From Endomychus coccineus (Eukaryota; Arthropoda; Insecta; Coleoptera; Endomychidae), in assembly GCA_958510875.1 (NCBI GenBank), contig OY294068.1, forward strand, positions 29,926,297 to 29,990,296: 64,000 nucleotides of DNA. Reading direction: 5' to 3'. Below, piece by piece: positions 3,199-57,700 of this stretch (position 1 is its first letter; each line of letters opens with the position of its first letter). The position numbers and the translations under genes are program-made. The notes beneath the pieces were generated by a model. It made no database searches. It was not told the DNA's origin and saw only the letters and a list, made by a program, of their open reading frames with translations.

Positions 3199-3206
3199 GT
3201 TGGTAC

Positions 3207-30768: not shown

Positions 30769-33700
30769 ATGTCCGGACCGAAGTACTCTATTAGTGACGT
30801 GCATTTTGAACAGTTCTTACTAATGACCGAATCAAATGAATGGAAAGAACGTCGCTTAACTCCTTTAAGACAACTGCCATCGAATCCGCGTACTATTGGA
30901 TGCGCGATAATGGAGAGTTATCAGTTTAAAACATTGGCTTCTTTTTTACCTGATGAGATAATAAATAATACGGAGGACTTTAAGGCGGAAAAGTGTCACG
31001 TATGTCTACTGTATGTTAAAATGAATGGTAAGTCTAATCTTTCTAAACTAAAACTCGCTCATTATGATGAGTAACTGTAGTTGAGGTTTTGCTCATGTGA
31101 TTTTTCATTTGCATAATCATATTATAAGTACTGCCTCAAGATCTACTTAGAAGAATATGAAGATGCATCTTTAAGTTCATTTCTTTTGATTAATAATTAT
31201 TGCAGGTATCACAGAATTAAGTGAAAAATATATTCATGACGGTCGTTACCTACCTTCACATCTAACAACAATTTTGAATATGTATCTTGGTGCAGTCGTC
31301 CAGGAGATACTTTCTGCTGGAGGCGACATATTGAAAATTTCTGGAGATTACCTAATTGCTGTGTGGAAATGCCCCTTTGACTCTGTGAAAGATCAAGTTC
31401 ATGAAGCCATCGATTGTGCTTTGGGTCTACAAAGGGATTATAGTTCCTACCAGACGGATTCAGGAAAAGTTTTGCAAAGTACCTTTAAACTTGAAATTTA
31501 AACTAAATATATATAGGTAATTGTATAATTTTAGTGAAAGTAATAATATCAACGGGACCAGTGACATTTGATGTGATAGAGGATAAACATGCATCACATC
31601 TTGTATGCATTGGAAAAGCCATAGATGAGGCTCAAACTGCTGAATATTTTTGCTATCCGGGAGATATTTCAGTTACCCCATCAGTGCGTCTATATATCAC
31701 CGGAGAAGAATATATTATACAAGATCTGGATGATAATAATACGCAGATTCATGCTAAGGTAAATCATGCAATAATGCTAAGCGCAGTAAATGTTATATTC
31801 ACTAGAATAAAATGAATCAAACTTTTTATACTTTGTAATGGATGATTATTTCAATTTTAAATGTTATTGGCTTCAATATGAAAGTCCTATTTATCCCAGT
31901 TAGTTAACAAAAATGAAACCTGGAATTAACTTAACCAACTCCATTGATTTTTCTAATGATTTTTGTGTGGTATTGCGATATTGTTATTTTTTGTATAACT
32001 ATCATATATTAACCAGTACTTTTATTATTGCTCCACTTCTAAGCTTGGAACCGTTTTTGAGCTAGTTTCGAACTATGAAGAAGTGTTCCTCTTCAATGGA
32101 GAATGAGCTAACTCAATATTTTTTTGCCATTAATTATAATGATACCATTTATACTCTACTGAGCTTGCGATAACTTTTTTGAAGTTTTACTGGAGTTGTG
32201 AGATTGACTGTTGTCAAACTGACCTGCAGCCATTCTTATTTGATTGTATATTAGGCTAACCATAGGCCTATCTGCTGTAGTGTGGTGGTCGGGGACAAGG
32301 ACTGGAATATCCCAGCGCCCCTGAACCAACTGCAGCGGCTTGCATGCGTAGGCATATTAAGCGGTATGAGGTCGGCTACAACGAAAGTCCTTGAAGCTCT
32401 CGTCGGATCAAAAAAAAAACTGAAGCCATGAGAACGGCGTATAGGTTGAAGAGCGTAGGCCACTGAACCAAAACGCACTACTCTCTTGGACACTCATCGA
32501 TTTTGAGTGAGGCAATCTCTAAATGCCCCATACTAGAAAGCATGATCCCAGCAATATGTCTCACTTCTCCCAAAATCCTCAACCCGGATAGAGGAGATTG
32601 AAGTACCGAAACTCTCACCCTACTGCCACCAGACGGCCTCGTATGGTTCACAGATGAGTCCAAGGTAAGTCAGGCGGGAGTGTACCTAAAAAGGCCAAAG
32701 TACTGAACGGTTTTTCAGGCGGAGATATACGCAATATTGACTTGTGCCATGGAAAACCTGCGAAGAAACTATGTAATGGGCTCATATATATTTGCACAGA
32801 CAGCCGGCCGGCTCTAGGAGCTCTCAAATCACCCAGAGTCACATCAATGCTTGTCAAAGAATGCAAGGATACACTGGCTGAACTAGTCAGGAGAAATAAA
32901 GTTCAACTCATCTAGGTCCCTGGACACAGTGGAGGATCCTAAATGGTCACTGTCGTCTTAACAAACACCTTCACACTATATGGGAATCACAGATGACCCA
33001 ATATGTAGGAAGTGCAAAAAGGCGGAGGAAGCTGCCTCTCACATCTTGTTGGAATGCCCAGCATTAGCGTTCCTCAGGCACCGACACTTCGGAGAATCAA
33101 AACTGCTTCCAGAAGAACTTATGGAAGCCAGCACTAGCAATATTCTGGGTTTCTGGATGGTCACAAACATGCTAGAATAAAATAGGCTTCTGACCACGTG
33201 GCGCACAATGGGCCCAACTAAGTGGCCTAAGTACCCTCAAACGATAAAGATGATGATATTATTCTGTTATGTCAATTTTTAGTATTACCATACGCATTCG
33301 TGAAACAAAACTGAATTTTTTATCACCCGCATGAACAAAAAATTATATACGATATGTCTACAGGTATTGGGTATAGGTCCTAATTGGAGGAAAGTAGCCT
33401 TCATCAAGCGGCTTTCAAATGGTAATATCATGAACAGTTTAATTAAATCCAAGAAACGATGGTGTAGGAACGTATTTTTCAGTTAATCACGTTTCGAGTA
33501 GCTCCAGCGAAAAAACCCTAATTAATGTTATGCCTTCTAATAACGAGGACTTATCGAGTATGTAATTGATTTGATGCTCTTATTAATCTGAAGATCTGAT
33601 ATTATCAAAGTTTTCTTCCAGTAAGATCTTCTGTGATTAGTATTGGAGGGGATTGGAAACAGAAGAACCAAACTTTGTCATTTCTGGTGCCTCCGTTGGC

Positions 33701-36700
33701 TAGAGCAATTTTTGCGAATCAAGTTGTTGAAGATGTAATTGAAATGCATCTGGTGGTATTAATGGTCGTGAATGTTACTTTCACGGATGTTCCAGTTCCT
33801 ATCAAAACACTTCAAGAGTTCTTCAGAATAATCAATCGGTTTGTACAAGCTTTCTCTAATCTAATTGAATAATATGGAATAGCAATCTATAGACTGAAGT
33901 GTAATTCAATGTCAGTTCTGAATGAAAGCTGCTGTATGAGGACGTTAAAAAGAACTCGACGAGGGGCAGCGGCATTGATGAAATCGCTGCCCCTAAGTTT
34001 CAGCAGCCAAAAACTTTATGATAATGAGCTGTGCGACCAACAAGTGAAATTCCTATTCCTCAGTCATGAAGCTATTCACCAAACGGTCGTGTGAGAAAGA
34101 CAGGACTTACCAACAGTCTTGATCGATTCTAAATGACGATGCAAAATACGAATTGGAACATCAAAATCAATATGGTTTTCATTACTAATAAACCATAAAA
34201 GAGTTGACACTGTGGATACACTATAACACTATACATAAGAAATAATCACCTTATCCACTAAAAATACCATTAAAGTACTGAGGACCTTTCGACTACTAAG
34301 TATCCATTATCAGAGGAAACTAAATTATAAATCAAAATGTGCCTGTTTAAATACTATTTGGGAATAATAATGTAAACAAGGAGTTACCCAATCCAGTCGC
34401 TATGCAATTGAGCTACACATAAAAATTAATTTTTTCCACATCTCTATTTTATGATTGATTCTTATGTTTTTTGGGGCGCTGATCACGAATAGGTTAGTTA
34501 AAAATTCGAAAACCTTATGCGCTCTAAGATATTGGCCATTTTTTGTAAAAAAATGGAAATTTCTGGGAATTTTCGCCGTCTTGTGCGTTTTAAACGAAAA
34601 GAACGCATTTTATCGAATAAACTGCTGGAATCGAAGCTGTAGAGGAAGTCAAAACGCATCAAATGGCGCTAATTAAAAGTTCATAAGTCAAGAGGGACCC
34701 ATCTAAGGCCCATTTCCAGGTTTTTTTGGTTTAAAATTTAATTTCTTATTACAGATTTTGCTCTAGGAACTGTATTTTCTGCTGAAAGGTAACATTTCAT
34801 ATTTAATTTCAACCCAATTTTTCTTCTCTATCTTTTTTTGCGCCATAAACCGCCATCTTGAAAAAATTGTATTTTTACGATTACGGCGCAAAAAATGGGT
34901 CTTTTAACCCAAACCAAACTGTAAATTAAAGAGTTTGATGGCTTCTATAACATATCCAAAATCCAACCACTTTGCTTGTACACTAGGCTTTTAAAAAATA
35001 AAAATTTCGTAGGTTAGCAAACTCGTATAAACTTCAAATTGTATTCAAATCAGGACCATTTTACGTGTATTTTAAGCTCTTCTGGCCCTTTTTTTGATAA
35101 GTAGAACTCGAGATATCTCTAATTGTATGTTTGGGCACGTAGTGGGGCCAGTTTTTGCCCTTTTTGGAAAACCCAAGATTCGTTTGAAAGAAGTGGCTTT
35201 ACTCTATCTAATCCTAAAACGTCGACCTCTCAGTTCCTACCTAAAAAATTCTAGCGCTACTTAAAAAAAAGAAGGACGAAAAAATGCAGTCGCGCTTGAA
35301 AGTGGAGCATCAGGAATGCAGATTTCACAAAAAATCTATAAATTTTGATTTCTTTTATATTATTTCGGATAAATTTCTTTGAAAAGTAGGAGAAAAGGAA
35401 ATACAATGTTATATAATTGAAGATTCATTTGAAACGCAAAAAACTTGTCAAAAATAGGCCAATATCTTCGAACGCATCAGGTTTTCGAATTTTTAACTAA
35501 CATATCAGAGATCAGCGCCCCAAAAAACATAAAAGTCAATCATAAAATAGAGATGTGGAAAAAATAAAAATCCCAATCAGCGACTGGACTATCAGCTGCA
35601 GATAAATTGATACATAATTTAGTTTACCCTGATAATGGTTACTTGGTATTTAGAGCAACTTTGAAAAAATCCGTCTGTCTGTCCTTGGCTAATTGCTTGT
35701 CTACACGATAACTCAAAAAAGAAAGATCCTATCATGTTCAAATTTTGACAAAAAATCGTTTGCTGTTCGGTCACGGACCTTTTGTTTTTCAGGGAAATCG
35801 GTTAATAAACACACCCTATTCTGAAGGGTTGCAAATTAAAAAAAAAACATAACGAAAGTATACATCGAATCAATTCAAAACTGTCACAGAAAATTTCAGT
35901 TAATTCAAACTGCTTCACCCAAATTTTAACAACAACAAAAACGAAAACTTGATTTCACAAACGATGATGACCATGGTTCATGAGCTAGGATACTCGACTC
36001 CTACTCAGAAGGCTTGTTTTTGTAACATTTTCTTAAAAATTCATCAATTTGAATATTATTTAGTTGTGTAAAGATAATAAAATGAATAATTTATTTCACT
36101 ATTTTTACATAAATGCTAAAAGTACCTTATATGATGTGAAACAATTATATAAAAATCAGTAATTTGCGAAGAGAGCTTTGACACGCACACTATTTATCAA
36201 TTTTCCAAGGGGCAACACTAGTTTATGTGTGAATTTGTTGATGTCTTATCCATGGTCTCGAGTAATAAAAATATAATTATCATTATAGATAGTATTTGTT
36301 TTTGTACTGCATTGGGGATATTTGCAAATATTATCAAAGTGTTTTTGTTATTTCAGGGTTGTTATAAAAAATAGCGGTTTCATAGCAAATATTACCACTT
36401 CTCAACGAGACATGAAATTTGTGATCCCTTTTGGGATAAGTAGTTTTCAACACGAACGAGAGTGTCAGTCAGCTTTGAGAACCTCCAGATGTTGTCATGC
36501 AGACTTACGAAAATTGCCCGAAGTAAAATCAATCGCAATTGCAGTAATGACAGGTAAGATATGAGCGCCAAATGCGATGTGCTACTGAGAAATCCTCGTT
36601 TTGCTGTTGTTTTCAAAATTGCCTCCGTAATTTACGAGGGGAAGGTGAAAAGTCCCTGAAAAATGAAACGAGAAATGATTTGTTTGGTCAAAACTTATTT

Positions 36701-39700
36701 TATTTCTCAACATGATCTCCTTGTAACGCGATACACTTCGTCGATTTCGATTTCAGCAATTCTTCAAAATAGGCGTTTGTTTCAGGGATGACCTCATTGT
36801 TGGAGCCAAATCTCTTTTCGCTGAGCCATTTCTTCAATTTTGGAAATAGATAAAAATCACAGGGGGCCAAATCTGAAGATTATGGTGAATGACGAACCAA
36901 TTCGTAGCTCAATTCATGCATTTTTTTTCTTTGCCAAATGCAGCCACTTTTGCTTCAAATCGGAGTCGAATCGATCCAACAGCTCTACATAATATACGCC
37001 GGTGATCGTTTTGCCCTTTTCAAGGTAATCGATATGGACGATACCGTGCGCATCCCAAAAAGCTGTCGCCATGACTTTGTTGCTCGATAAATACACTTTG
37101 GCCTTTTTCGGATTCGATTCGCCAGGTCAAGTCCATTGTTTCGACTGTTTTTTGATCTCTGGTGTGTTGTGACGATCCATGTTTCGTCCACGGTTACGAA
37201 ACGGGGCAACAAATCCTTCGTATCCCGCTAGAACACCGCCAAACACGCCTTTGGAGTAGTCACACGGTCTCGGTTGTTGTCAACAGAAAGCATATCAGGC
37301 ATATCAACCTGAAAATTTTAATGCGTTCTAGTTAAAGATGGCACATCACAAATGTCACATGAGATTTCAGATTGTGGTGCCATCTGTTTTATTTTTCAGG
37401 GACTATTTACCTTGCCTTCGTATATCCTTCGAGTACAAGTTGAATATTTCAGAAACAATAGATTAAAATTTCATCAAGATAGGTACTTGTCTGTTTTAAG
37501 GGGTGGGGAAGAGTGTTAGTGTTAAAAACTAAACATTTTATTGATTGGTTTCCTTAAATAAGTATCATGCAATAAAAAAGAAATTTCCAATAAGAGAAAA
37601 CCTATTTCAACAAATTGATCTTAATCACTCAATTAAATATATCATTCCAAATAATGAAACAATAGCTAGTTGAAAATGACAAAAGAGCTGCGAAAGTGCC
37701 AGGTTTCGATCCAGACTCCTGTCGCTACAACAGACCCAGTTCCTTCAAGTTCGAAATATATACATAGCCTACTAGAATGGGAGGCCGTTGAATCTAAGAC
37801 ATATGATCGAATCGAGCTGACCGAAGAAATATGTGGATGAATTTATTTTAGATTCCCATATAATAGCAGCCTACAATAGAATTGTGGCAAATAGCAATTA
37901 AAAAAAAAACTGTCTTCATTAATATTGGTCGTCTATTTGAAGAGGAAAATTTTTTCATATACTATGAATTGTTTTGATTTCAATTCTAGAGCAGTATCTA
38001 AATGAACTATAAAAGAGTTCACACTGTGGATATATTATAACAACATTGATAAGAAATGATCACACTTATCCACTAAAAATACTATTAAAGAATTGAGGAC
38101 CTTACGGGCTACCAAGTAGCCATCATCTGAGTAAACTAAATTATAAATCAAAATGTTCCCGTTTAAATACTATTTGGGGATAATAATGTAAACAAAGGGT
38201 TACCCTCAGGGGGTGATAAATCGAAATATAATAAATGCTTTTTCGTTTATACATTTCCATCCCTTCTAAATCACCTAGATATTTGTCTGTACTGTATTTT
38301 AAAAAAGATTAAACTTTCTTGAGAAATGTTGTTAGCTGTATTCAAAATATGTTCGACTACCGCTAATTTTTCACCATTATTTTTCTTTATATGGGCAAAG
38401 TATAACGAGTGAAAATTTACCTTCCAGTTTAACCCACATAGAATCATTTTCTATTAGAATTGCACTAAAGCGACCTGGGCCTTTGTATTAAAAATCTGTT
38501 TTAATATAAATGCAAGGATATATTATTTAAAAAGACGAATTTTATAGGACGAGTTTCTATTATATGTCAATTGTTTTCAATTTGTTATATTTTAGACCGA
38601 AGAAGAAGATGAAATTATTATATTCACAAAGAAAAATTGTTAAATAGTGTTATATTATGGAACGCCGTTTTAATATTTATTAATAGCAAGCTTAGGTTTT
38701 GAAATAAATTGGCAACCAATTACAAAGTATCCAGAGAGATAACTCGATTAACTGACCAAGAATTTATTATTTAAGGGAAGGCGTACTGTGGTGTTATTGG
38801 ACATATACTAAGGCGGGATTATACTATAATAAGTTCTGTTATATCGAAAGCATCATCATTAGTAACGAACTATCCAAATAAAATAATATGCGACAAAATA
38901 ACAACGACACATTCGAAACTGGAATCTGAACATTTTGTTTTGCTGGTAGATGAAAGTCGTAACGGATGTGAACAGGAACCTGTTTATGAATATGTACATC
39001 TGACGGAGTAAGTATTCTTGTTCATTTCCAAATGCTCGTAATTGTTTTTTCAAGTATTGTGCAGAAAGTACAGTATAGAGAAGTATGAAAAAACATCTAA
39101 TAAGCAATCCTAGCAACCCGTTGATATTTCGAAATCGAAATACTTATTTCGGCAGCTAGGTTGCCATCTATAGTAGAGCATTAGAAAAGGCAAGATTCCC
39201 CTAAAGCCTAATTCAATCACAACTAACTAGGCCTCTTGAAGAAAAAACTCATAGCCTCTTTTATATGATGTTTTATATATAAATTCTTTGGAAATAGGTC
39301 ACATTAACACATATGCTCATTATTTTCGTCTTTACGTACGTTTCGGTCTCACGACCATCAACAGAAGACGTATCAATGTCTAAAACGAGATTTCTTAAAA
39401 CTAATTGTATCAGCACAAAGCGTCTTTATCGCACAATTTCAATTTTAAAAAATGCCCACGTTGCCGAAACGAGCAGAAGCACGAGTAATCGAAATTGCAA
39501 CATATTAATGTTTTAAGTATTTGAATATGTATCAAGAATCCACTGCTTAGCAATTTACTCATAATATACGAAGTCATGTCAAACAAAGTTTGTATACGAC
39601 TGAAACAAAAAAATATAACGCTCAAGTATCCACTTTCGAACTAGATGTTAAGATTTATGAGGTTATAGAAGAAGGTTGTCAGACATTATTAGAAATATTG

Positions 39701-42700
39701 CTATTTAAGCATTCTACCTAAATATACTCAACATTATAAAGACGCATGTAGGAATTTGCAAGGGTTTTAATTAATTAAATTAGTACAAATCTGGCTTAAT
39801 GATTGAATGGCTGTTCTCTGATTTACAGACTTGGAGTCACGTTTTATGTAAATCATCTCCAGAATGAATCTTTTATAATAATTGGGTTCCTTAGTTAAAA
39901 TATTAACATTTTTGTACTCGAATTGATGGTTATAATCAAAACAGTGTTTAGCAAGGGCGGTGGAAGTTTTTATTTCTTGTAATATACTTTTGGCCATACA
40001 TTCTTTTTTGTAAATATTGTTTAGAGATTCCTGAATAGGTCCCATCGCAATATAAACAATTTAATTTGTATACTGTGTGGGTTTGTGTATCTTTAGCTAT
40101 TAAAGGTTTCAGATTTGAAAAATATTTCCCAACAGTTAGTAGGTTTATGCGCAACATTTATATCATACTTTTTTAAACATGTCTTAATTTTATCTGACGT
40201 CTCCGGAATGTATGGTAATGTTATAAAAATATCTGTATTACCTTTTATGTGATTTATATATGACGTTCCATTATTTCATTTCATTGAAAAACTTCAAACG
40301 CTAACAGTTGACTCAGGAAATTGGCTCGTTAGCTTCGACGTCGAATCACTCTTTACCAATGTTCCCATTCCAGACACCCTTTCCATAATTTCTCAATTGT
40401 TACCTGCCAAAAACATTTCAATGGACTTGCTACCGTTAATTGATTTTTGTCTATCTTCTACATATTTTCTGTACGATGGCAAGTTTTACGAGCAGTCCCC
40501 GGGAGCTGCCATGGGTTCCCCCCTTTCTCCGATCATAGCTAATATCTTCATGGAAACTTTTGAGCAAGATACTATTGACTCATCTGTTCTCAAGCCGAAA
40601 TGTTGGTTTAGATAGGGCGACGACACTTTTGTTATTTGGCAACATGGTCGCGAAAATCTTGTTCCCTTCCTCAATCATTTAAATTCATTACATCCCAATA
40701 TCCTTTTCACCATGGAAGTCGAATCGCAAGGTTCACTCACAAAACTTTACTGCATTTATAAATTCAGATTGATCTAGGTGTGTGGTTTTTAATCTCTGCC
40801 CAACGTTTTTTGATGCTACTCAATGCCAAAACGAGTTGTAAATTTGTAAATGAAGAAACAACGTCCAAGGAAATTAATAGATGATCTACGGGTACGGATT
40901 GACTTATTTATTTAGGAATTTATTCATGTCATTTTGTACTGATAACGTAGGGTCAGATTTTAATTTTTTGTAAGTTGCTTCATCATTTAATAAATTCCCT
41001 ATTTTGTTTTCGTAGTCATCTCTATGCATTATGACAGTTTTATTACATTTATCCGCGTTCAAAACTAATATTTGAGGGTTAGCATCTAGGAACTTTTTTT
41101 TTGTGTGATAGTTAAAACGATTTTTTGCTATGCCTATTTCTGCTTTCTGTTTATTGTTTTTATTTGTCAAGATGTTACAAATTTTATTTCTAATTTCATG
41201 TTTTCCTTCTAAATTTTTATTTCTAATTCCGCATTCTAAATTAGTTATTATATTGCCGATAGGCATTTTTTTATTATCAGGCAATGCAAATTTCGGATGA
41301 TGGTCGTGAGAGCGAAACGTAGGCAAAGAGGAAAATAATAAGCATATGTGTTAGTGATAGTGTGACCTATTTCCCGAGAATTTATATTTAATTCATACCT
41401 GGGTCAAGAATCATTATTAATTTATATGATCTTACTTAACGATTATATGACCCAAATATTCTTTGCTAAATTGTTTCATATTTTATTTCCAGCTCTGAAA
41501 CTGAATTTGTACATCCCATCTTGAATCGAGAACAGGAAATAGAACAATTTTTATCGATGTTCGAAAGTTACAGTCGTTTCTTCATGAATTATATTGTAGG
41601 AAAATCATGTGCGGCAAGACCAATAAATATGTTGATAATAGACGGAGACGAAGGTCAAGGCAAAACTAGACTACTCAATGAGCTTGTCTATACAATTTCT
41701 GAAGCTATACCGATAATTAAATTTAAGTTGTCTTCAGAAGACTCTGAGGTTAGTATGTTTATCACAAGCTGAAATATTTATGAAGGATGGTTTACGATCA
41801 AACTGATTCTAATGGACGTTCGCTACGTTCCGCCGTTTATCGCATAAGCCAATAAAGAGCGCCTGCCTCAGTCTGCCTAGTTTTGCGAGCTCGATTCCTC
41901 TATGTAGAAGCCGATTTGAGCATATTTCATTTCCAATTAATTTGTTAATGTTTCAAACTAAATTGCATGTTTGTTCTAAGCTCGTCAGCATTTCAAACCG
42001 CGATGTGAGTTCCCGTGAACGCCACATGCATTTGGCTATCTGCGCTCCATCTTCAAAGTGGATAGTCTATTATAGTAAGATACAAATTCATGTATATGAA
42101 TCAGTTGACATCACAAAGAGAAAGCATCATAGGCACACAAAGCTGAAAGCAGATCAATCTGGCAAATCTAGTTTTCTCAACGGCCGACTGTAAATTGTAG
42201 AGAGCGCTCCGGTACATGACTAATTTCCGATTTATAAGCCCTAGTCGGCCAGATAGTTAGCGCACCGAACATTGAGCGAAACTAAGCCAATAGCGTCGAG
42301 TATTTCGACGAGCCACTCTGCTCAATAATTCGAAAACGGCTTATTGGAACGACATTGAATTTTTATGCCATTTTTTCAAGCTTCATATCTAGTTAACACT
42401 AATCAATCGAGACACGACTTCGTTCACTAACTCTCACTACGCGTTAAAAAAACAAAAACAATACCTACTTTGGATCTGTGTGGAACTATAGTCCAAGCAA
42501 TACGGCATGAAATGAGTGATTTTTTGACATTAAATCTACCTGAAAACCGACTGTGCCATTATGTTCAGGTAAGTGGAGACATTAATTGTATCACGTTTTC
42601 GACTCTGAAATGTGGTCACCCTATTTATTATAAACATTTTAAACAAAAAAAAGGCACTTTTTTTAGTTTTTTGTTAATAACTCAACAAATAATGAAGTAA

Positions 42701-45700
42701 TCGAAATAAAATAAATAGACAAAATGTAGGTAATTGAATTACGAACAAAACAAACTTTCGAGCGACTAGATCGGATGATTAGAAGCCGAGAAAACTACGG
42801 AAAAGCGGGAAATTCGACGTTTTTTTAAAAATTCATATCGCCGTTGTTTATTATTTTGTAGAATCGAATCTTTGCAAAAATGTTCTAGTACTTATGCACT
42901 TCACGTGTGCAAAAAACTGTCGCTGTGAATCAATTAGTTTGGGTGTAATTGTAATTCAAAGTTTTTTAAGCGATAATTTGCAAAATCGCTAGATGCGTCT
43001 GAGATAATCCGATTTTAAATTTTAAAACGGTTTTAAAAAATATAAGATCCGTACAACAAAACGTATATTCTCGTTAGCAATTGATAATAATGATGGGAAG
43101 TGCCTCAAAAACGCTGGGAAAGTCGGTTCGAAACGGCGGATCGCGCGGAAACGCTCGAGTAGTGGGGGTGAGGGAGCGAAGGGGAGGCACACATATATAG
43201 ATATAGAGGCGCGCTGCGCCGGGCTTCAAATTTTTGTATTATAATATCTTAACAATGACGCAAGCTATCTTGTTAATTTTTATTTTATTTTGGTGCTAAT
43301 GAATTCCAGGAAATTGATTTTTTATTTATAATTAATAAATAAGCAATGGTTAGGCGTATATTCATGAAATTGAAAATTGTTTTAACTTTATATTGATGAT
43401 ATGAGAATAAAGGGTTGTATGAATGTACAAAAGTGATGTTTACAGGTATTTACATTCATTAACATTTATTTCAACATATATTTACGTATTTATAACTATT
43501 TATCTACACGCACGCAATGTACCTATTTATATTTAATTTTTTACAATAATTTACCTTACAATAAATTCAAGTTTATCTATCGTGTGCGACCGGGTTGTCT
43601 TCAGACACATAACAGTTCTATAAAGATTCATTCAAAATAAATTAATTGGCTCAATTTATTGAACATAGTGTCATTTTTTACACAGATACTTGAAAATTAT
43701 TAAGATAGCTTGCGTCATTGTTAAGATATTATAATACAAAAATTTGAAGCCCGGCGTAGCGCGTCTCTATATCTATATATGTGTGCCTCTCCTTCGCTCC
43801 CTCTCCCCCCACTACTCTAGCGTTTCCGCGCGATCCGCCGTTTCGAACCGAATTTCCCAGCGTTTTTAAGGCACGTCCCATCATTTGAATTGATAACGAG
43901 AATATACGTTTTGTTGTACGGATCTTATATTTTTCAAAACCGTTTTAAAATTTAAAATCGGATTATCTCAGCATCCAGCGATTCTGCAAAATATCGCTTA
44001 AAAAACTTTGAATTACAATTACACCCAAACTAATTGATTTACAGCGACAGTTTTTTGCACACGTGAAGTGCATAAGTATTAGAACATTTTTGCAAAGATT
44101 CGATTCCACAAAATAATAAACAACGGAGATATGAATTTTTAAAAAAACGTCGAATTTCCCGTTTTTCCGTAGTTTTCTCGGCTTCTAATTATTCGATTTA
44201 GTCGCTCGAAAATTTGTTTTGTTCGTAATTCAATTACCTACATTTTGTCCATGTATACCATTTCGATTACTTCATTATTTGTTGAGTTATTAACAAAAAA
44301 CTAAAAAAAGTGCATTTTTTTGTTTAAAATGTTTATAATAAATAGAGTGACCACATTTGAGAGTCGAAAACATGATACAATTAATGTCTCCACTTACCTT
44401 CTCAAGTAGTATTACTGTAACGATTAAACCCCTATTGCTTGGCCTACTAGTAAAGTTCTAACCATATGTCGGAGATGTCTTTCCCTACGGGATCTATGTC
44501 TATGAATCACTGTTGCTTATACTTACTTTCTTCTTCTACCCCGTTTTGTATATTAGTTGCATTTATCCCAACTGTACTAAATAAATAAATAAAATTTTAT
44601 TGGTAGGGTATTATTTTCTTGAACATTCACTCGAATAAAAATGCGTGGAGCTATATTTATACAGAAAGATTATAGGCGTGGCTGTTATCACATATTTACT
44701 TAGATCTGAAAATTTCTCGAACATCAGTTGAACTGCGAAAGACGCGCTTACATTTGTAAAAAAATGTAAAAAAAGATATTGGGCTTTAAATGAATCTAGT
44801 AGTTCATAATGTTAAGCAACAACAATTTGAAAGCATATTTAGTTGTGAGTCAATAATTTCCAGGATCCTTTCCAAACGACGAGGCGTATTTTTGAACCAT
44901 TACTAGAGTTTAGTCAATCTAACAGAAAAATGAACGAAGAAAAAATTATAGAACGTCTTGGGAATATGCCTGCGTCTGATTTTATATGTGCCTTCAATAA
45001 ACCATTAAATATAAGTTTTGAAGAAAATGATTTGTACAACTTGTATTCAGACGAAGAAAAACAAATTATACTCGAAGATATGTTCAAACAGCTCGCCCAA
45101 AATGTAAGTGTAAGAATTAATCGTATATTCTCTTAGTTAAACATTAGATTAGCTAGGCACGAAGGCATCCTCTACCTTGGTGGCTATTGTAAAATCTGTG
45201 AATTGCTGGAATTGATTGGCCTAAAGTTTAGGCCCTGAACATTGATTAATATTTAATCCATGGCCTAAATAATGAATATTGCAGAAATATTTTTGAAGGT
45301 ATTTGGAATGACGCTTAAGATTCCTCTTGGACTACGTCTAACTTTTGTTTCCACTATTCTAGAATATTGATTCGTTTGTTTTAGGATTCGACATGTTTTA
45401 AGGGGGTTATTTGACAATGAAATGCCACTCTTAGGGTTGTCAAGCTTTTGAATCAGCCGCCCATTCCGGGTAAGACGCTTTTTGCAGGCCCTCACTCTGA
45501 GTCATAAGCTGCTTTGCCAGTTTTGGTCTGCCTCTGGTATTTCATTTTCCCGGTACCACTCATATCTTAGATCGCCCTCCCCCCAAGCGAGTGATGAACT
45601 TTTTCTACTTAAAGAGTATTTAAAACTTGGCTTCCGTCAACTAGTCAGATTAGCTTCATTAAATGTACATTCTGAAATAGAGTTGAATGTAGAACAAATT

Positions 45701-48700
45701 AGTGATAGATTTGCTCAAAGCCCAATAGATCTTTGGTCATTGCATCTTCCCCTCCCCCCGGAAAGACTGCTGGATCCGCCCCTGCACCGTACGAGAGACA
45801 ATGTCAATGGATATTCCCACCAAAAATATTTCTACGACATCCATTATTTCTGCTGTAGAAGCATCTCTACATAAGGTTCCCCATCTCGCAGCAGATGAAA
45901 TTCGTTTCGAAACTGCTAAAATTCTTCGTTATTCCAACATTCCTAAATCAAATTGCCCTAAACCTTTAATCCAAGCTCTTAATTTACTCAAATCAAATCC
46001 TGATTTATCTATTTTGAAAGCTGATAAAGAAAATCCTACTGTTCCGATTATGATGACAAAATCCTGCAACATCTCCAAAATAATTCCTATAAACTCCTAC
46101 CAAAAGATCCCACCCCCTTTATAGAACGTTCAATTTCACAAATTATTCGTCATTCTTCCCTTCTTGATCCAGATAAGAAATTTCTTATCCCCCTTGTTCA
46201 AGAAACCCCCGTTAATATAGTTTGCCTAAAATGCATAAGCCCTCAGTTCCCCTGAGACCAATTGTCAGCACCGTCGGATCCCCTACTTATAAACTCTCGA
46301 TATCTGTCAACTATTATCAAACCTCTTGAAGGGAATTCCAACAGTTTTATCCTACATTCCTTTCATTTCGTTGAAAAACTCCAAACTCCAAAAGTTGACC
46401 CAGGCGATTTGCTCGTCAGCTTCGACGTCGAATCACTCTTTACCAATGTTTCCATTCCAGGCACCCTTTCCATAATTTCTCAACTGTTACGTGCCAAAAA
46501 TCATTCAATGGACTTACTACCGTTGATTGATGATTGTCTATCTTCCACATATTTTCTGTACGATGGTAAGATTTACGAGCAGTCATCGGGAGCGGCTATG
46601 GGTTTCCCACTTTCTCCGGTCATAGCTAATATCTTCATGGAAACTTTTGAGCAAGATGCTATTGACTCATCTGTTCTCAAGCCGAAATGTTGGTTTAGAT
46701 TGGTCGATGACACTTTTGTTATTTGGCAACATGGTCGCGAAAATCTTGTTACCTTCCTCAATCATTTAAATTCATTACATCCCAATATCCTTTTCACCAT
46801 GGAAGTTGAATAGAAAGGTTCACTCCCGTTCCTAGATGTATTAGTTAGTCGACAGACTGACGGTACTTCAGAACATTCTATGTATCGAAAAACCACTCAC
46901 ACCGATAGATACCTCAATGGTCTTTCCCACCACCACCCTGCCCAAAAGCAATCTGTAATGAACTCCTTGGTCCACACTTCACAGAGCTGTTAACTTATCT
47001 CAACCGCAATCCTTGGAATCAGAATTAAAACATCTTTCATCTGTCTTGTTATCAAATAATTTCTCCCATTACAACATTTAAAAAGCAATAAAGAAATACA
47101 CTTCGCCTAAAATTTCAAATCAACCTAAGCCACAATCGCCCGCCTGTTTTATCCACTGCCTCTCTTCCATATATTGAAAATATAACAGATCGAATTTCCA
47201 AAATCCCTAAAAAACATAATATTTCTTCTCGGTTTTCCACACTTCCAAAACTCTCTCAGTTTTACAAACCTATCAAAGATTCCCTTCCTCCTCTTCACTT
47301 AGAAGGTGTTTACAGTATTCCCTGTTCTTGCGGTAAAGTCTACATTGGAGAAACAGGTCTTACAGTAGCTACTCGTGTGAAGAAACATGAGCGCTGTACA
47401 AGGCTTCGTGAGACCAGTAGATCTGCATTTGCGGAACACAAGTTTGACAATAATCATCAAATCCTTTTCGAAAATAGCGAAAAATCCTTGAAGCTATAGA
47501 AATCCTAATAAAACATCCAAATAATCTGAACCGTGACTCAGGATATTACCTTCCCAACATTTGGAAACCCATGCTCGAAAATTCCCCTTCGCACAAGATC
47601 ACACAACGGCAGGGTCAGATGCCAGAACGGAGTCAACCACCGGAATAAAGGTAGTGAACTGTGTAGCGTGGAAGGTTTTTTTCCTACAATAAATACCGCT
47701 ACAGAAACCAGTAGAATCAGTTTCAGTTCAAGCCTCAAGACTGCCCTGAAGATGCCACCTCTAATGGTTGGCGAAACGTCGGCATCAAGTCGTGCTATTG
47801 TGACGCGGAATTCATCCGGAAGCCTAGATTTTTCAAGATTAGCTTAGCTATCCGCGGAAGCCTACTATTCAAGATATAATGGATATTCGCGCCGGACAAA
47901 CCTTGAAACAAAATGATGACATATAGAAAGAACAAGATAATAATTATACATTGAAGATCAAGGAATCATATACAAAGGAAAGGAGGATCGCACTTTCAAG
48001 AAACATGCTAGATCGAGATGGATGCAAATCGTTCACGATAGAGGAGCATGGAGGAGGAAAGAGATGTATATGTGCAAAGGTGGACATCCGGGGCTGATTG
48101 GATAGGTAGATCCTGGAATGAATCCTATTCAAATAGAACTATTTTTTTCAGAGTTTCGATTGTCCTCATTTAATAGCTATTGATAACGGTGAATACATAG
48201 ATGAAGAAACTTGGAATATCATGTACGATTTCTTGGACATTTCGATTTGTTTCTTTGTTATAACTGTAAAACGAAACCATCCATTGGGAGTTAATGCGGA
48301 AAGAACGAGTAAACATCCCAATTCGAAAATAATCAGTCTTCAAAATATTGATCAATCTTATTATACTACTCTGGTATGTCAAATTTTGAATGTAGAAGCT
48401 ATTCCAACAGAATTGGAAAGGTGAGTTGAACATATTTTTATATAAAGGTGTTTCTTATTTCAAAATACCAAGTATTATTCTATAATTGGTTAATGAGATC
48501 TCATGCTCATAATATATTTAATTTCTTCAATTTCAAAATAATAATTTAGGACACTTAAATACACAAGTTAAATATATGCGTATATTTATGGATGCCGAAA
48601 GCACCACTTGCAAGGGGGCTGTTGTTCCTCGAAATAGTACAGTTACTGTTTACACAGTTTTTGATTCGTACGACCAATGGGAATGGCCCAATCATCTACA

Positions 48701-51700
48701 CAGTGGGTTACGCACACAGAAAGGTCCATAATGAATATTTCTACGAAAACTCGCAAATTTTCTCAGGACGATTACAATACTCCCCTTCTACTACGGGACG
48801 TACTTTTCCACATTTTTAATTCTTGCAAATCTAAACAGGTTCAAAGTTTTTGAATATTATACTATACTATAATTCGCGAATTTTATCAACTAGGGCAATA
48901 ATGTGACTATGCTATCTAAAACGTGAGTCGATTATTACTTCGAGATATCTGGTTTGGTAACCAATCGCTAGGCAATTAGATTTATGAATAAACGTTTCTT
49001 GAACCGAGGCAAACGGGTGCAACAAGTTTTGCCCATATTGAATAGTTAATACTAGTGATATTTTTTTGTATCTATTATTTTTATGATGTTAGCTTTTATA
49101 TCTTCGTCATATGAAATAATGAAGCCATTTTGGTCGAGCTACAAGAGGGGGATTATCTAAACTAAAATAAGAATTGGTCCCAGAATAGTGCCATGGGGTA
49201 CATCATTTTCCAGTTTCTCAGTAGGACTGTAAGCGTTGTCTATTTTAACCTTTAGTTCGCGATGTGTTCGATAATACTTGAATAGATTATTATTAAATAA
49301 TGCTTCTGACATCTAAGAAAACTGTACATTGTACCCCTTCATCAAGCCTTCCCTAATTTCCTTAATCCGCATATACCTTTTTTAGTACTTTTATTCTCAC
49401 TGAATCCATATTGGTGCTCAAATATTAATTCATTATTTTCGAGGAATGAAATTAATTTTCTTGTAATTTGGACCTTCTGTTCGGACGGTAATTTGCCATG
49501 TTATTACTATTGCTTGATTTGAGAATTGGTGTGCCTGTGGTGGAATTTTCAAACTGAATAGGAAAAATTGTTGTCGATATGACTGAATTTGTAATGTATA
49601 AAATGAGAAAAAGTTCAGGAACTTGGATCTACTTGGACATATATCTCCATTATAGAACTTGCTGATGAGCATATAATACGTTGAATAAGAGAAATTTAAG
49701 TTCTTTTAAGGAAACGAACCGTGGAAATCCTAGAAGCGCAGAGCGTTTTATAAGCAATATTTTAGAAAATAATGGACTAGTCACAAGAACGATTGGTGTA
49801 GATCAAGTTAAGGACTTCAATCTAGTTTTTCCAAACATTTCTCCCTCGGACAGGTACATTTTAAAATATTTCACCCCAGAACTAGTTCAGATATCGGCCA
49901 TATTTGTTTCAGCTTACCACAGACAATACCTGAACAAAATAAAGTACAAAACAACAACGCAAAGAAGATTTTGGATAGTAATACCGATATCAAAGCCACC
50001 GAAGTGAGTAACTATTTCCATTTATTCCATTCAAATGTGGTTTCTTGAAACCTAGTTTAATTTTTATTCCAAGTTATTTGGATATTAATATTATTATATT
50101 AGAAATACTGGAACGATTATCAGAATTCATTTGTATAAATCTAGTTTTACATCATTGGTATGTGTTAGGTCCGGATAATGTAAATTTCGAGGTATAAATT
50201 ACTTTATTTGAAAATGTTCTATTGAATTCATTGATCATTTTGATTTGTGTATCATTCCATCGCGCCTCATTGAGTCACCTTAACTTGAACGATGTTGTTC
50301 AAGATCTAGGTCCTTCAGCAAACCCGAACTGTCTTCGGGGATTTTTTGATCATGGAGAAACTAAGCAGGGAAATTAAGGAATTGAAAGAGGAAATTATTC
50401 CTCATGGACGAAACATAATGCAGATACCACCAATTAAAGGAAGCGAGTTGGAAACTGGGCTAGAAGCTGTAAAGAGGAAGCCACTCACTTAAAGGAATAT
50501 ATTTAAATACCAATAACCCAGAAGAAGGTCAGAAGAAACTATTCACCAAGAAAAGAGAATAAGAAATTAATACATGAATTTGTTGCGGAAACCAAGCATA
50601 ACATAGCCCAAAAAGGGCTCTTGGACTACAATTAATAACTGGAGATATACATAAGTGGAAAACCGTCATATATGATCTGTTCATATATACGATCATCATG
50701 TCTAAGTTCCCTCAGAAACTATTACTCAAAATAATACAACCAAGAAAACCCAATCCCAGACCACCAGTTCAGATTCAGGCGTAAACAGGCGAGAATAGGT
50801 CACTCATATGATGAAAATGCGTTAGAAGAAAACAAAGTACGCTTTGTAGTATTCTTAGATGTAGCTCAAGCGTTTGTTAAGATTTGAGAGATTACATTAT
50901 AAATTAAAATCTATCTTTCCCAATATACAGATATTTTAAAATCCTACTTATCAGACAAACACTTCTGTATTGAGCAAGAAAATGCCTAATCGGATCTTAA
51001 ATACATCTAAGCAGGAGTCCCACAAGGACTAGGTCCTGTGCTCTACTTTCTGTATACGTGTGATCTACCAGATTCAGAAGATAACAATATAGTTAATTTT
51101 TTCGACGATACTGCTATAATAGCAATGGGCAAAAAATATACAGAAACAGCTAAAAAACATCGATACGCCTTCAATAAATTCCAAAACTGAACCAAGAAAT
51201 GGAAAATTAAATTAAATGAAGAAACATCATTTCATACTGATTTCACTATAAATAAAAAGGCTTACATTATGCAGAGCTGTTGGATCGATTCGACGCCGAT
51301 TTGAAGCGAAAAAGCGGCCGCATTTGGCAAACAAAAAAGTGCTCTTCCACCAGGTCAACGCACAGGTCCGCAGTCGCAATGGCAAAATTTCATGAATTGC
51401 GCTACGAATTGGTTCGTCATCCACCATATTCTCCAAATTTAGCCCCCTGTGATTTTTATCTACTTCCAATCTTGAAGAAATGGCTCGGCGGATAGAGATT
51501 AGGCTCCAACGATGAGGTCATCGCTGAAGAAAACGTCTATTTTGAATGATTGCCGAAATCGTATTATTTGGGAGGGCTACAAGGAGATTATGTTGAGAAA
51601 TAAAATAAGTTTTGGCCAAATAAATCATTTCTTGCTTAATTTTTCAGGAACTTTTCACCTTGCCCTCGTATAATCGACGACAACCGACGAACAATTTTAT

Positions 51701-54700
51701 CTTTTGTTGCGTAAAAGATCTAGGATAAGAAATGCGATTCTTATTTTGCAATGCACTCCAAATACAAAAATTCGTTTCAGATATTCGACATTTCCTGCAC
51801 CAAAGATGATTGCAACGATAATAAAAAATTAGTGGTTGTTTGTGTATTGGCGCCACATTTTAACTTTAACGAAGACCCTAAAGGAATATCGAAGGAATTG
51901 AAGATATTCAAATCTTACGAATATTTGCCAACTTACGAACAATATCTGTTGAAATGTGCTGCTATTCTTGGGAAAACATTTTCCAGAGATTTACTCTTCT
52001 ACGTATTTTCTTCGAAATACTATGAGAAATATTCCATGCAAATAGTCTTAGGTAAGATTTCGAACTGAATTTAGGTACATGAAATCAGAAATTCATTTAG
52101 TGTCAAATTCAAGTATATCTTACTGCTTGGCCAAAGGAAGCTTCTATTGTCGAACCATACCATATATTTGACTTGGTCAATCCAGCTTCATGCCATTTTG
52201 CTCCTATTCCAAGGATTTAACAGATGATCCATGATTTATCTAGATTATTTGCCAGACAGTCAAAAAAGTATTGATTATAACAATGGTCAATCGCCAGAAT
52301 CTCATCGAGGGCATTCAATTAAAATCGCAGGTCCAAGCTTTCCAGTGTATGAAAAATGGTGCAAAATATTGACCTGCAATATTTCCCCAAATCACTGCCA
52401 TGTAGAAATTGTTTTGGACGTATCACACCCAACAAGTTACCAAAATATTACTGATTTCTAGCTATACAAACTTTGTTCGAGTTGAGAATATTATCATGCG
52501 CAAATAGAACGAAAAATCTCAACAACAATTCTATGCAATCTGAGAGGCGCAAAGATTTAAGAGCTCACATATGTATCAAATGTGATTGTCCCAATCTGGA
52601 AGTTACAGGTATATTAACAGAAACTTGTAAAAATTGTTGATCCACATGGTTCTTTTATATTTGTTGAAGCACACAGTCACTTGCCAAAATATACGTTCTG
52701 CGGATCTCTTCATTTCCGTTCTAAGGTATACCAAGACGCTATTTACAAACTGTTGACGGATATTGAGAAAATTGAATTCCACATGAAAGCGTTCAAGTAC
52801 TTGTGTAAGCATGCAAAGAAATGTTCAGCATGCGGGAATGGTCCCCTAAATTTGAAATTATTGTTTACACAGAAGACGATGGAGGTGAGAAATTTATTAT
52901 AATCTTGTAACAAAATATATCTATATTTGTTGATTTAATTAATGAAGATTTTGAAATGGGAATCTGATAATCTAGTAGTTAAATGCAACCAAAACTCAAG
53001 CTTGTATCTTCTCCAAGAAGGAGGATCCCATAATTTCTGATATGATGATGTCTGGTACAACTATTCCTGTGAAGTCTTTACATCTATTCGCAGGATCACC
53101 ACCAACAACACCTTCTCATAGGATGATCATGTGGAGTCCATTGGTTTTCTATTCCGTGCCAAGAGGTACTTTACATCCTAGCAGCTCCTCATAATCTACA
53201 AAGCATGGATTCGACCTGTTCCGGAGTACTGTTCACATGTTTGGAGTTCGACTCCCAAAAATACGCTGAAGCTCTTGGATTCTATCCAGAAGAGAGCTAT
53301 TCGTTTGATTGATGATGTCACACATCCCTTTTTTATAGATATTTCCATGGTCTGTGATCATCAGAAATCTCGTATGCTATTCCACCACGAGAGATTCCAG
53401 GTAGGCGGACAAAACTCAAGCTGTTCACCCAGTCATTGTCAAGCTCGTGACCTGCCGTACAACTACCTATCAATTTTTCTATCAAACTGCATAGTTTTGT
53501 CTGGTGAGGTTTTCCCCATACGCCTATAACCTCCAAAGCTTCAAGAAAAATTCGAATGCCTATCTCCTCGCCCTACATTCTACCACTGGCTCACACGATG
53601 TTCTGTGAACATTATAGGCTTTCCTCTCGTGGTTTCTTCTCAAAGTGTGGAAAAAAAATGAATATCAGAACTACAATAATATCTGAAACGTCAATAGGTT
53701 CGTATTTGGGAAACAACAATCTGGAGCCAACAGAAAAGGGTGAAGAAGGAAATTACATCCTTCTGCTTTATCTTATGCTTATTATCAGGAATCTGGAAGC
53801 AGCACAAACTGGTCACAAAAATCCATCAATTGTGTAATTTGACGATTATTTTGCTGTTACCGCATTCCTAAAATGGGCAATGTGGTAGAATTGCTAAGTA
53901 GATGCTGACATAAGAAAATAGTAGGGCATCAATACTGTTTTTGCAGATGGTGCTGAATACCTCTAGCTTTTGGACTTGCCTACTAGTTTCCTAATAAACC
54001 AATAGTTTTCTTAATGAGAGTATCGTTATCCACTCACTCCCCTAAATGTTGTGAATTAAGTCATGTATCGATGAATTTCAGAAACGAGTTAAGAAAAATA
54101 AGACCGAAAAGACCGCACATAGAATAAATGAAGGAGGAGATGCAGCTTTATCGCCAAGGACTAACAAGGCAGAAAATATGTCACCTCGAACAGATATTGA
54201 GGAAATTAAATCAATAACCGGTTATTTACCAACTTATCTTAATAGAGGTAGATCGTGTAATTCTTGTTTGATATGAGCATTGACTAGAATTTTTTATTAT
54301 TGTAGATTATCCAGAATCAACAAACCAAATGTTGGCCTTTCCGTCCTTCTTTCGTTGTAATTTCGCGAACTGCCAATGCGGAAGTACATTAAGTACTACG
54401 TACAGAAATTTAGTGGATCATGCCAATGGATCAGGTTATGTGTTTTAGTCCATTTATTTAGTTCTTAGTCAGTTTAAATATTATAAAGTTTTGGTAGAAA
54501 CACCAACCGAAAATTTACGAAAAGGAATCTAGGTAACACCGAAAACGATATATCTACATATATTACCGGCTAGAGGAATCTTGCTTTTCGTAAAACTGTT
54601 TTTTTTTATAGTATCATCTATAGAATAGATCGGCTCCTGAATTGCCGCGAAAAAAAAAACAAGTATACATATTGCGTTAAATTTATCTTCGAAACAACGT

Positions 54701-57700
54701 TAGTTAATTCAAGAATGGGTAGCAATATAGGGTTCCCCTAGTCGCACGGTGCTAATTTTTTGGCAGAGGACTGGCTTCGTGAATTGGAGCTAAGGGTTAA
54801 TAAGATAAATTTGAAGATAGACCTCTGTAACATCCGAGCTCTTAGCAAAAACATAAACGCTGTACATTACCACCTGCAGACAGACAAACCAGACATACTG
54901 GCCTTAACTGAGACGCAGGTCAATCCATCCACCAAAACGACCTATATGCTCTGCCCCCGGCTATGAGTTCCACACTCGTTTCAGATTTAAAGGAGGTATC
55001 TGTCTCTATTCTACAAATGATCTCTCAAGCCGCCGAGAGGAGAATCTAAAACCATAAGAATTCGATGTAATGTGGATCAAGTTTGATAATAACAAACAGA
55101 CAAAATTTCTCGGTTGTCCTTATTTATCACCAAATGAACCAGCTCATGGTGACCTATTTGAATTTCTTTCTCTGAAACTTGACCTCATTCAGCAGAACTA
55201 TCCGGCAGCTGAAATTATTATCATGGGTGATTTCAACGTTCACAACTCTGAGGCCTTCGCCATTACCTACGGTCTCGAGCAGTTAATTAATGAACCAACA
55301 CGGATCCGTGATAATAACAATCATTATGCCATTTTGCTGGAATGCAAATTCAACTTTGGATTCACAAGGGAAGGACCCTCCTAATATTGCTGTCATCGAT
55401 AGCCATATGCCTGAAATTGCATTCATTTAGGTGCATTCTGCTTCATCTCAATACCAAAAAGTCTATTGGAACAAACGGCATTTCACCTGTCGTTCTCATG
55501 GAATATGCGCCTGAATTTACACCAGTTTCTGCAGGTTGTTTATCTTTTCATACAAACTTGGTATTTCCTTCCACCTGGAAGACAGCTAGAGTGCAACCAA
55601 GTTCAAAAAAAGGAAAGAAGATCTTTCCTAATAATTATAGACCCATTGCACTATTATCTGTTATTTTTAAAGTGATGGAGAAAGCAATCAACATCGAGCT
55701 TATCAAATACCTAGAGAGCTACAAAATTGTAAATAACCGGCAATATGGCTTTCGTCAGCAGAGATCAACAAGAGACCTGCTTGCAGAAATCTATTGATAA
55801 ATATGGGTAATCTCTAGCTGTATTATTGGATATCTCTAAAGCATTTGACCGAGGCTGGCATCAAAGTCTCCTTGAGAAACTTCCGTCGTATTGTTTGCTG
55901 CCTCAACTTTGTCGCTTACTATCGAGTTTTCTCTCAGATAGATCACTCCATGTGGTGGTTGACGTAGTATCCTTCGATACAATGGGATATCTATCAACGC
56001 TGGTACTCAACAGGGATCTGTCTTGGCACCAATTTTGTTTCTGCTCCATATCAACGATCTGCTGGAAGTGACCACCAGTCCCGTCCACACCCGTCCACAG
56101 ATTTGCAGATGATGGTACACTTCATACCGCTTTCTCATCTAGAGCCCCTATACCATCCAATGAAGCCAGAGGAGCTAGGCAGGGACAGGCTGACGCAATT
56201 AATGGAGATCTGGCAAAGATTTTGAAGTGGGGATCTGATAATCTAATAAAGTTTGATGCAACCAAAACTCAAACTTGCGTCTTCTCCAGGAAGGCGGATT
56301 CCACATTCCCTAATATGATGATGTCAGGTACAAGTCTTCCATAACAATGCTCGGGATCACCACCAACATCACCCTCTCATGGGACGATTATGTGAGTTCC
56401 ATTGCGAAAACCGCTTCACAAAAACTTCAGTATCTCATAATCTACAAAGCACAGATTCGACCTGTCCTGGAGTACTATTCACATATTTGGAGTTCGGCTC
56501 CCAAACATACGCTGCAGCTCTTGGATTCTATTCAGAAGAGAGCTATTCGTTATTCACTTACGAGTTCATTGACCTCTCTAGAACATCGTAGAAAGTTGGG
56601 AAATTTCTCCCTTTTCTATAGATATTCCCATGGTCGTTGTTCATCAGAAATCTCGTCTGTTGTCCCACCACGAGTGGTTCCAGATAGGCGGACTAGACGA
56701 GCTCAAACTAGTCACCACTTCAGTGTCAAACTCGAGACCTGCCGAACTTCGTCCTACCAGACCATTTTTTTTATCAAACAGCGAAGTTGTGGAAATCTTT
56801 ACCTGGTGAGGGCTTTCCTATGCCTATAACCTCCAAACCTTCAAGAAAAATACGAATACTCTACTCCACTGCTGGCTCACACGATGTTTTTCGAACATTA
56901 AAAAAAAACTCAGAGTCTCTGGGGGTACTGAAAGGCTTCTAGTGATAGAACCATTAGGGGATCTGATGCAGTTGATAACAATAATAGTTAATGCACGAAC
57001 CTATATTCTACTGATATATGTCGTAACAAGAGAACCGTGAATAATTCTCAAATACCTTGTTATTTTCAGGTCAGTATCTGAAGATGCTGGAGAACATTAT
57101 TAATTATGCCGTCACCTCATTCGAATACAATCATTACTCAGACAGTTTCAATTTGTTAAGAGACGCTATCAGATTTCTACAGGTACGTTTTGTGTAGGTA
57201 TACAGGTTGGAAAGTTCAAATTAGTAGTTGGGTATTGCGAGTGTTGGAATAGCGTATCCGTTTAGACGAGGATAAAGCGTAACAGCGTCAGCGATCGCCT
57301 CTAGAGGGAGATCGCAGTCTTGAACTTTAGTAGTTGTTTCAGTAACTGTGAACGTGTAAGCGAAAGCATGAGTTCACATCGCATCCTTTCTACCAGGAAA
57401 TAAATTGAGTAAATTACATCAGCAGGAGAGAATGCAATTATTCTATTGCTTTTATCTTTTCTTAGCGAAAAAGAGCGAAACTATTACTTATAGTTCTAAA
57501 TAATAATATTAAATCAAACTACAACTACAAATGTTCCAAATTAAATCTCAAAGTATTTTCAATATTTATACACAGGTCAGGAAAATTATCGGCCCTAGAT
57601 TCTTGAAAACTAAAAATTTCTGAGGAGAAGAATGCTGAAATTATGTTCCAATGCCACCGCTATGTATCCAGAATTCTGATACTCGATGTTCCTTCAAATT

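Follow-up and report, generated by a model that had tools for sequence, protein, structure and literature searches.

Can a soluble adenylyl cyclase (sAC, ADCY10) be preserved at full length after losing most of the residues that make it an enzyme? This question is raised by a gene that begins in a 64,000-nucleotide stretch of the genome of the beetle Endomychus coccineus (contig OY294068.1, positions 29,926,297 to 29,990,296; hereafter, the window). As judged from its sequence, this gene is an ADCY10/sAC by descent, with the tandem cyclase domains C1 and C2, a P-loop NTPase domain and a long TPR-like C-terminal region, all of which are retained, as a preliminary description of this DNA had maintained. 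By contrast, the set of residues that defines the enzyme, namely, the two metal-binding aspartates, Lys334, the FDK loop, Asn412 and Arg416, is gone, with D99 as the sole survivor. Being homologous to an enzyme, with active-site residues lost, an intact reading frame and paralogs with intact sites in the same genome, the gene has the apparent hallmarks of a pseudoenzyme paralog, and we consider it likely that it is a maintained, full-length one in which the NTPase/TPR part performs a non-catalytic role.

The window protein aligns with the catalytic domains of human ADCY10 (residues 56-487, E = 2.6e-35, in a match to PDB sequences), so the kinship with human sAC proposed in the preliminary description holds. 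The protein also matches PF00211 in a single stretch, in C1 (E = 3.2e-9), and the AAA_22 profile below the cut-off of that profile; the Walker A motif, GDEGQGKT, is intact. The exon-by-exon homology to sACs, which extends to the C terminus, is the basis on which the TPR-like region is recognized. The window gene shares with insect ADCY10/sAC, such as the proteins of Cryptolaemus (P0124) and Tenebrio (P0053), the C1-C2-P-loop NTPase-TPR-like order, a length of about 1700 amino acids (aa), the C-terminal ending and the exon-wise homology, and differs from them in the replacement of most functional positions and in strong acceleration, greatest in C2.

In human sAC numbering, obtained from the alignment to the human protein together with Table 1 of PMC12867704 (for T405, from the preliminary description), four of the 12 functional positions are kept in the window protein, namely, K95, D99, K144 and T405; the earlier account had listed all of these except K144. 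The other eight are changed: D47 to Lys, position 176 to Gln, K334 to Asn, F338-D339-K340 to S-Q-R, and N412 and R416 each to Ser. The replacements at 47, 412 and 416 had been read correctly before; that at 334 had been given as Arg, through a register slip, and is actually Asn (local sequence FIAN), with the Arg located at the K340 position. The D47 region reads YVKMNG, with no acidic residue adjoining the D47 position. Gln at position 176 was likewise read correctly. Arg176, however, is mammalian: insect sACs carry Lys there, as an excerpt of PMC12867704 also states, so the loss in the window protein is one of Lys to Gln.

In the reference set of 125 canonical insect sequences, with each position counted where a letter is present, these residues are nearly invariant: in C1, D47 in 109/112, K95 in 111/115, D99 in 115/115, K144 in 114/114 and Lys at position 176 in 115/115; in C2, K334 in 124/124, T405 in 113/123, N412 in 123/123 and R416 in 124/124. 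The complete canonical set is present in 29 of the 32 beetle sequences. For insect sAC proteins, 120 listed of 430 matches were used, and bacterial or unlabelled entries (P0017-P0022, P0162 and P0163) were left out of the counts. Apparent losses of D47 in P0103, P0117 and P0157 were taken as wrong gene models, with starts unlike those of other sACs. Among the conserved C1 and C2 columns, the window protein has lost eight of 10 functional positions compared to 31 of 84 others (Fisher p = 0.015).

The gene comprises 26 exons, as reconstructed from reading frames, splice sites and phases, with all introns GT..AG and phases matching, and encodes 1662 aa with no internal stop, one terminal stop and a C-terminal ending typical of sACs. 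Pseudogene marks (stops, frameshifts, broken splice sites) were looked for across the 26-exon model and none were found, which bears out the earlier observation of frames open over 20-plus exons. The preliminary description had placed the ADCY10-like gene at 30769..39007; this interval does hold exons 1-7, that is, C1, the linker and C2, but the gene does not end there. Of its exons, 23 lie in the window (30769-62846, plus strand), and exons 24-26, located beyond the window edge by matching the sAC C-termini of other beetles, take the gene to 67840 in extended coordinates. Exons 12, 16 and 18 are supported by splice sites and phase only, and the tblastn matches to exons 4 and 11 are weak. Alternative exons that would restore the D47, K334 and R416 segments, named in the preliminary description as grounds for rejecting its reading, were not found in the window DNA (tblastn at E up to 1, with five queries that were canonical or hymenopteran). 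The exons are as follows.

Exon 1, 30769..31027 (+): start ATG, beginning of C1; codon 31018-31020 AAA (K84) at the human Asp47 position
Exon 2, 31206..31478 (+): C1; K95 and D99 kept
Exon 3, 31535..31758 (+): C1; K144 kept; codon 31633-31635 CAA (Q211) at the human Arg176 position (Lys in other insects)
Exon 4, 33364..33421 (+): C1-C2 linker; weak tblastn match
Exon 5, 33622..33838 (+): linker and start of C2; no tblastn match, placed by alignment to human sAC
Exon 6, 36357..36553 (+): C2; codon 36388-36390 AAT (N355) at the Lys334 position; FDK loop replaced by SQR
Exon 7, 38776..39007 (+): C2; T405 kept; codons 38844-38846 (S433) and 38856-38858 (S437) at the Asn412 and Arg416 positions
Exon 8, 41493..41748 (+): NTPase; intact Walker A
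Exon 9, 44864..45103 (+): NTPase
Exon 10, 48152..48420 (+): NTPase; Walker B-like motif
Exon 11, 49701..49853 (+): NTPase; weak tblastn matches
Exon 12, 49913..50003 (+): phase and splice sites only
Exon 13, 51781..52051 (+): tblastn match
Exon 14, 52462..52608 (+): tblastn match
Exon 15, 52670..52884 (+): tblastn match
Exon 16, 54082..54247 (+): linker; phase and splice sites only
Exon 17, 54306..54434 (+): tblastn match
Exon 18, 57070..57182 (+): C-terminal region; unmatched by tblastn, placed from phase and splice sites
Exon 19, 59654..59798 (+): C-terminal TPR-like region
Exon 20, 59891..60069 (+): C-terminal TPR-like region
Exon 21, 60148..60407 (+): C-terminal TPR-like region
Exon 22, 62359..62558 (+): C-terminal TPR-like region
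Exon 23, 62681..62846 (+): last exon inside the window
Exons 24-26, extended coordinates 65076-65327, 67499-67637 and 67703-67840 (+): outside the window

The introns contain transposon pieces (36914-37126 on the minus strand, 40253-40612, 46256-46810 and 51256-51492), with matches to Transposase_1 (mariner-like), two reverse transcriptases and, weakly, DDE_3. Head to head with the gene lie two minus-strand frames, 27092-27490 and 30033-30290, read by eye as one putative RING-finger gene with a putative ATG about 500 bases from 30769; the former frame matches Sina_RING below the curated cut-off, and the latter has no match.

The constraint on the window gene is uneven between the cyclase part and the remainder of the protein. 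With a conserved column defined as one at least 95% conserved in 38 canonical insect sequences, the window protein keeps 27/43 such columns in C1, 5/12 in the linker, 28/51 in C2, 16/22 in the NTPase domain and 31/41 in the rest, that is, 60/106 in the cyclase part compared to 50/66 elsewhere (Fisher p = 0.014). When C1, linker and C2 are set against NTPase and TPR columns, the window gene keeps 60/106 and 47/63, and Cryptolaemus 100/106 and 57/63. The path lengths from the beetle ancestor on a fixed tree, given in the order window gene, Cryptolaemus, median of 24 other beetles, are 1.53, 0.84 and 0.51 for C1, 2.62, 1.18 and 0.60 for C2, 2.01, 1.79 and 1.07 for NTPase, and 2.36, 2.06 and 0.95 for TPR, so that the excess of the window gene falls mainly in C2 and C1. 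Relative-rate counts are similarly skewed toward the cyclase part, both against Cryptolaemus (102:27 in the cyclase part and 136:91 in NTPase and TPR, p = 2.6e-4) and against Onthophagus (123:20 and, elsewhere, 179:68, p = 0.0024), whereas canonical control pairs show no such skew (Lamprigera/Aquatica, p = 0.11 with the opposite trend; Cryptolaemus/Onthophagus, p = 0.57). When neutral point mutation was simulated over a 1486-aa part of the coding sequence at 0.3 substitutions per site, 40 stops arose on average and at least 31 in each of 20 runs, whereas the gene itself contains none.

In the beetle's own 906-Mb assembly, the window occupies positions 29926297-29990296 of assembly sequence C2. 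A search of this assembly with the Cryptolaemus sAC, with scores computed for 27 of 72 candidates and the family size thus a lower bound, revealed at least six further sAC loci, here denoted A to F. A and B are intron-bearing and lie about 30 kb apart on assembly sequence C5, at about 3.19 and 3.25 Mb; both have canonical motifs (GDVSG, FSGDA, KEAE, NKVSLFDKD, EYTVI and VNKAAR) and so would be expected to be enzymatically active. The identity of B to Cryptolaemus is 75 and 80% in the two best single matches and 53% overall. C, also with introns, is on assembly sequence C2 at about 35.7 Mb (stretches L016-L023); it has lost D47 (to Q), D99 (to N), the FDK loop (to SEK) and R416 (to A), and keeps K334, T405 and N412. 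These three loci were read from exon matches, not full gene models, and the stretch of A contains 200 N; a Ser at D47 in the stitched A sequence and an Ala at K144 in the stitched C sequence were dismissed as matches run into introns, the exon matches themselves showing D47 (GDVSG) and Lys (YFTAK). The remaining three loci are as follows.

D, assembly sequence C5, 118.58 Mb, L024 906-6041 (-): intronless, complete 1711-aa frame
E, assembly sequence C5, 0.112 Mb, L025 2473-7252: two frames of 219 and 1276 aa, very divergent
F, assembly sequence C1, 146.02 Mb, L026 about 2538-4861 (-): exon-joined, 5'-truncated retrocopy of C

D is changed at nine of the 12 functional positions (K95Q, D99N, 176L, K334F, F338I, D339H, T405M, N412A and R416H), and E keeps D47, K95 and D99 but has lost K334, T405, N412 and R416. 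In conserved columns, D is the clearest case of uneven constraint: it keeps 58/105 in the cyclase part and 57/63 in NTPase and TPR, the latter equal to Cryptolaemus, whereas E is eroded in both parts (57/100 and 33/63). F is 91.7-99.3% identical to C by segment, with its frame broken by single-base gaps and part of the sequence of C missing. As a processed copy, F demonstrates that the mRNA of C underwent germ-line splicing on at least one occasion; the absence of introns from D suggests the same for the source of D.

Phylogenetic analysis placed the window gene within the beetle sAC clade with support of 100, both with and without Cryptolaemus. Inside the beetles, the window gene groups with Cryptolaemus and with A to D in a clade that has full support in the Shimodaira-Hasegawa-like approximate likelihood ratio test (SH-aLRT 100, the only support measure of this quick tree), the inner order of which is unsettled; a sole pairing of the window gene with Cryptolaemus was rejected as the meeting of long branches. 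The identity of the window gene to A-D and Cryptolaemus is 28-34%, and its tip length is 1.62-2.0 changes per column in trees of 50-56 sequences and 2.83 in a 29-sequence beetle tree. E is outside this six-member clade (forced inclusion: approximately unbiased (AU) test, p = 0.0006) and joins a hymenopteran paralog described below with support of only 41.7, both being on long branches.

Ants, bees and wasps offer a parallel case. Scoring of the 7,986 candidates with the most words in common with an ant query protein yielded a second sAC paralog represented by 28 sequences (P0011-P0016 and P0133-P0154), nine of them placed by the tree and the others by similarity, with P0016 lacking an organism name. 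Like the window gene, this paralog is full-length, stands beside a canonical copy (12 listed species have both, 11 of the canonical sequences being complete and one cut short), has lost K334 and N412, and keeps Walker A, which is intact in 24/24 sequences. Where a letter is present, K334 is found in 0/25, N412 in 0/28, T405 in 1/28 and R416 in 9/28; D47 is kept in 5/23 and D99 in 6/21, in some bee and wasp sequences, and therefore the loss is clearest in C2. It differs from the window gene in forming a separate clade with its own replacements, mostly D47N, T405A/M and N412D, and a single clade of the two was rejected (AU p = 0.000191). Cyclase skew was observed in two of three pairs of second paralog and canonical sAC (p = 0.0019 and 0.009). 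The model P0154 (Vespula vulgaris), named as a UBX domain-containing protein, also includes a second-paralog sAC part and is probably an annotation join.

The reading that best fits these observations, at the level of sequence comparison, is the one that the preliminary description had put forward, namely, a pseudo-cyclase with an NTPase/TPR role: the residue losses, the uneven column conservation and the two intact loci all accord with it, and the complete frame at 28-34% identity, with NTPase/TPR columns better kept than cyclase columns, agrees with its statement that this is not ordinary decay. Probably, duplication in a ladybird-like lineage was followed by retention of the catalytic residues in two neighboring copies and their loss in the window copy, which two loci with all catalytic residues could have freed. 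The C1-C2 part would still fold but should not synthesize cyclic AMP (cAMP), since it has Lys in place of one metal-binding Asp and lacks the adenine-recognizing Lys334, the FDK loop, Asn412 and the phosphate-binding Arg416. The P-loop NTPase and the TPR-like array would bind nucleotide and partners, and because this part is better kept, the most likely role of the protein would be that of a scaffold or partner gated by nucleotide. It would probably act in germ cells or sperm, given that sAC is found in sperm elsewhere and that the sister pseudo-sAC C has left a spliced retrocopy. A sperm scaffold would be the most natural guess, given that excerpts of the respective papers report a predicted C-terminal autoinhibitory domain and P-loop in full-length human sAC (PMC12802110) and co-occurrence of the sAC, SLC9C and CatSper genes in animals (PMC10573352); regulation of the intact copies would be the chief rival.

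Several observations count against this interpretation. The NTPase/TPR part of the window gene is itself eroded (47/63 conserved columns, compared to 57/63 in Cryptolaemus), so that constraint is relaxed overall, if less so in this part, and Walker B is DN rather than DD, although several canonical beetle sACs share DN. Measured against B, the window gene shows a strong cyclase skew, but so do canonical A (31:6 and 42:34, p = 0.003) and Cryptolaemus (32:11 and 65:52, p = 0.044), which makes B a poor yardstick. The nearest relative of the window gene, at 34-35% identity, is too distant for the ratio of nonsynonymous to synonymous substitution rates (dN/dS). Between C and F, the proportional ratio of nonsynonymous to synonymous differences (pN/pS) is 0.62, which is not significantly below neutrality (18 synonymous and 43 nonsynonymous differences in 739 codons, p = 0.11), and polarization of the differences is even (23 and 22, with 26 unclear). 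Finally, the third hymenopteran pair shows only a trend (p = 0.11, not significant).

The best-surviving alternative, although in our judgment an unlikely one, is that the window protein regulates A and B, its dead C1-C2 pairing with, stabilizing or competing with canonical sAC in a prozyme-like or dominant-negative-like manner. The two loci with canonical residues in the same genome and the partial retention of the structural columns of C1 and C2 would suit this role, and activation by dead paralogs is a known principle, according to an excerpt of PMC5201418; yet sAC forms its active site within one chain, with no need of a partner, and it is in the cyclase domains that the window gene is most accelerated. 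Rather less probable still is that the gene is on its way out, having been recently released from selection with a frame open by chance, as the long branch and the transposon pieces in the introns might suggest; against this stand the 26 exons, whose splice sites and phases are all intact and which hold no internal stop despite an identity below 35%, the long open frames in D and E, and the young retrocopy F, which is already frame-broken and shows how fast copies break in this genome. That the protein is a cyclase whose chemistry or substrate has changed, acting via D99, K95, K144 and T405, is very improbable, even with four of 12 positions including one metal-binding Asp kept, given the joint loss of the phosphate and base recognition residues (R416 and K334) and D47 and the absence of an acidic residue next to the D47 position.

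Inactive paralogs maintained beside active ones are not without parallel: the trypanosome AdoMetDC prozyme and Fam20A are pseudoenzyme paralogs with lost catalytic residues. A maintained pseudoenzyme in the window would resemble them, by analogy, in the retention of fold and gene beside an active paralog, although they are not class III nucleotidyl cyclases. In the open-license literature on insect or dead sAC, limited for some queries to the top-ranked papers, no description of catalytically dead sAC paralogs was found. One practical implication is that insect proteins annotated as 'adenylate cyclase type 10' can include some that probably do not synthesize cAMP.

To our knowledge, the NTPase/TPR half of sAC has no settled function. 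That an apparently intact gene with active-site residues mostly gone belongs to a set of several such copies, alongside two with a normal active site, suggests that the non-enzymatic part of sAC has a job of its own, and this half can be studied in isolation through proteins that have dropped the cyclase but retained it, as has happened in parallel in beetles and Hymenoptera. More tentatively, and with somewhat less than even confidence, pseudo-sACs might form an enduring class of insect proteins with several origins (the window gene, C and D; the hymenopteran clade, to which E may belong). If E does belong with the hymenopteran clade, one pseudo-sAC would predate the split of beetles and Hymenoptera. 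On this view of pseudo-sACs as a class, the NTPase/TPR half would serve an essential function of its own, for example as a scaffold in the sperm tail linked to the SLC9C exchanger, and the cyclase would be only one of its outputs.

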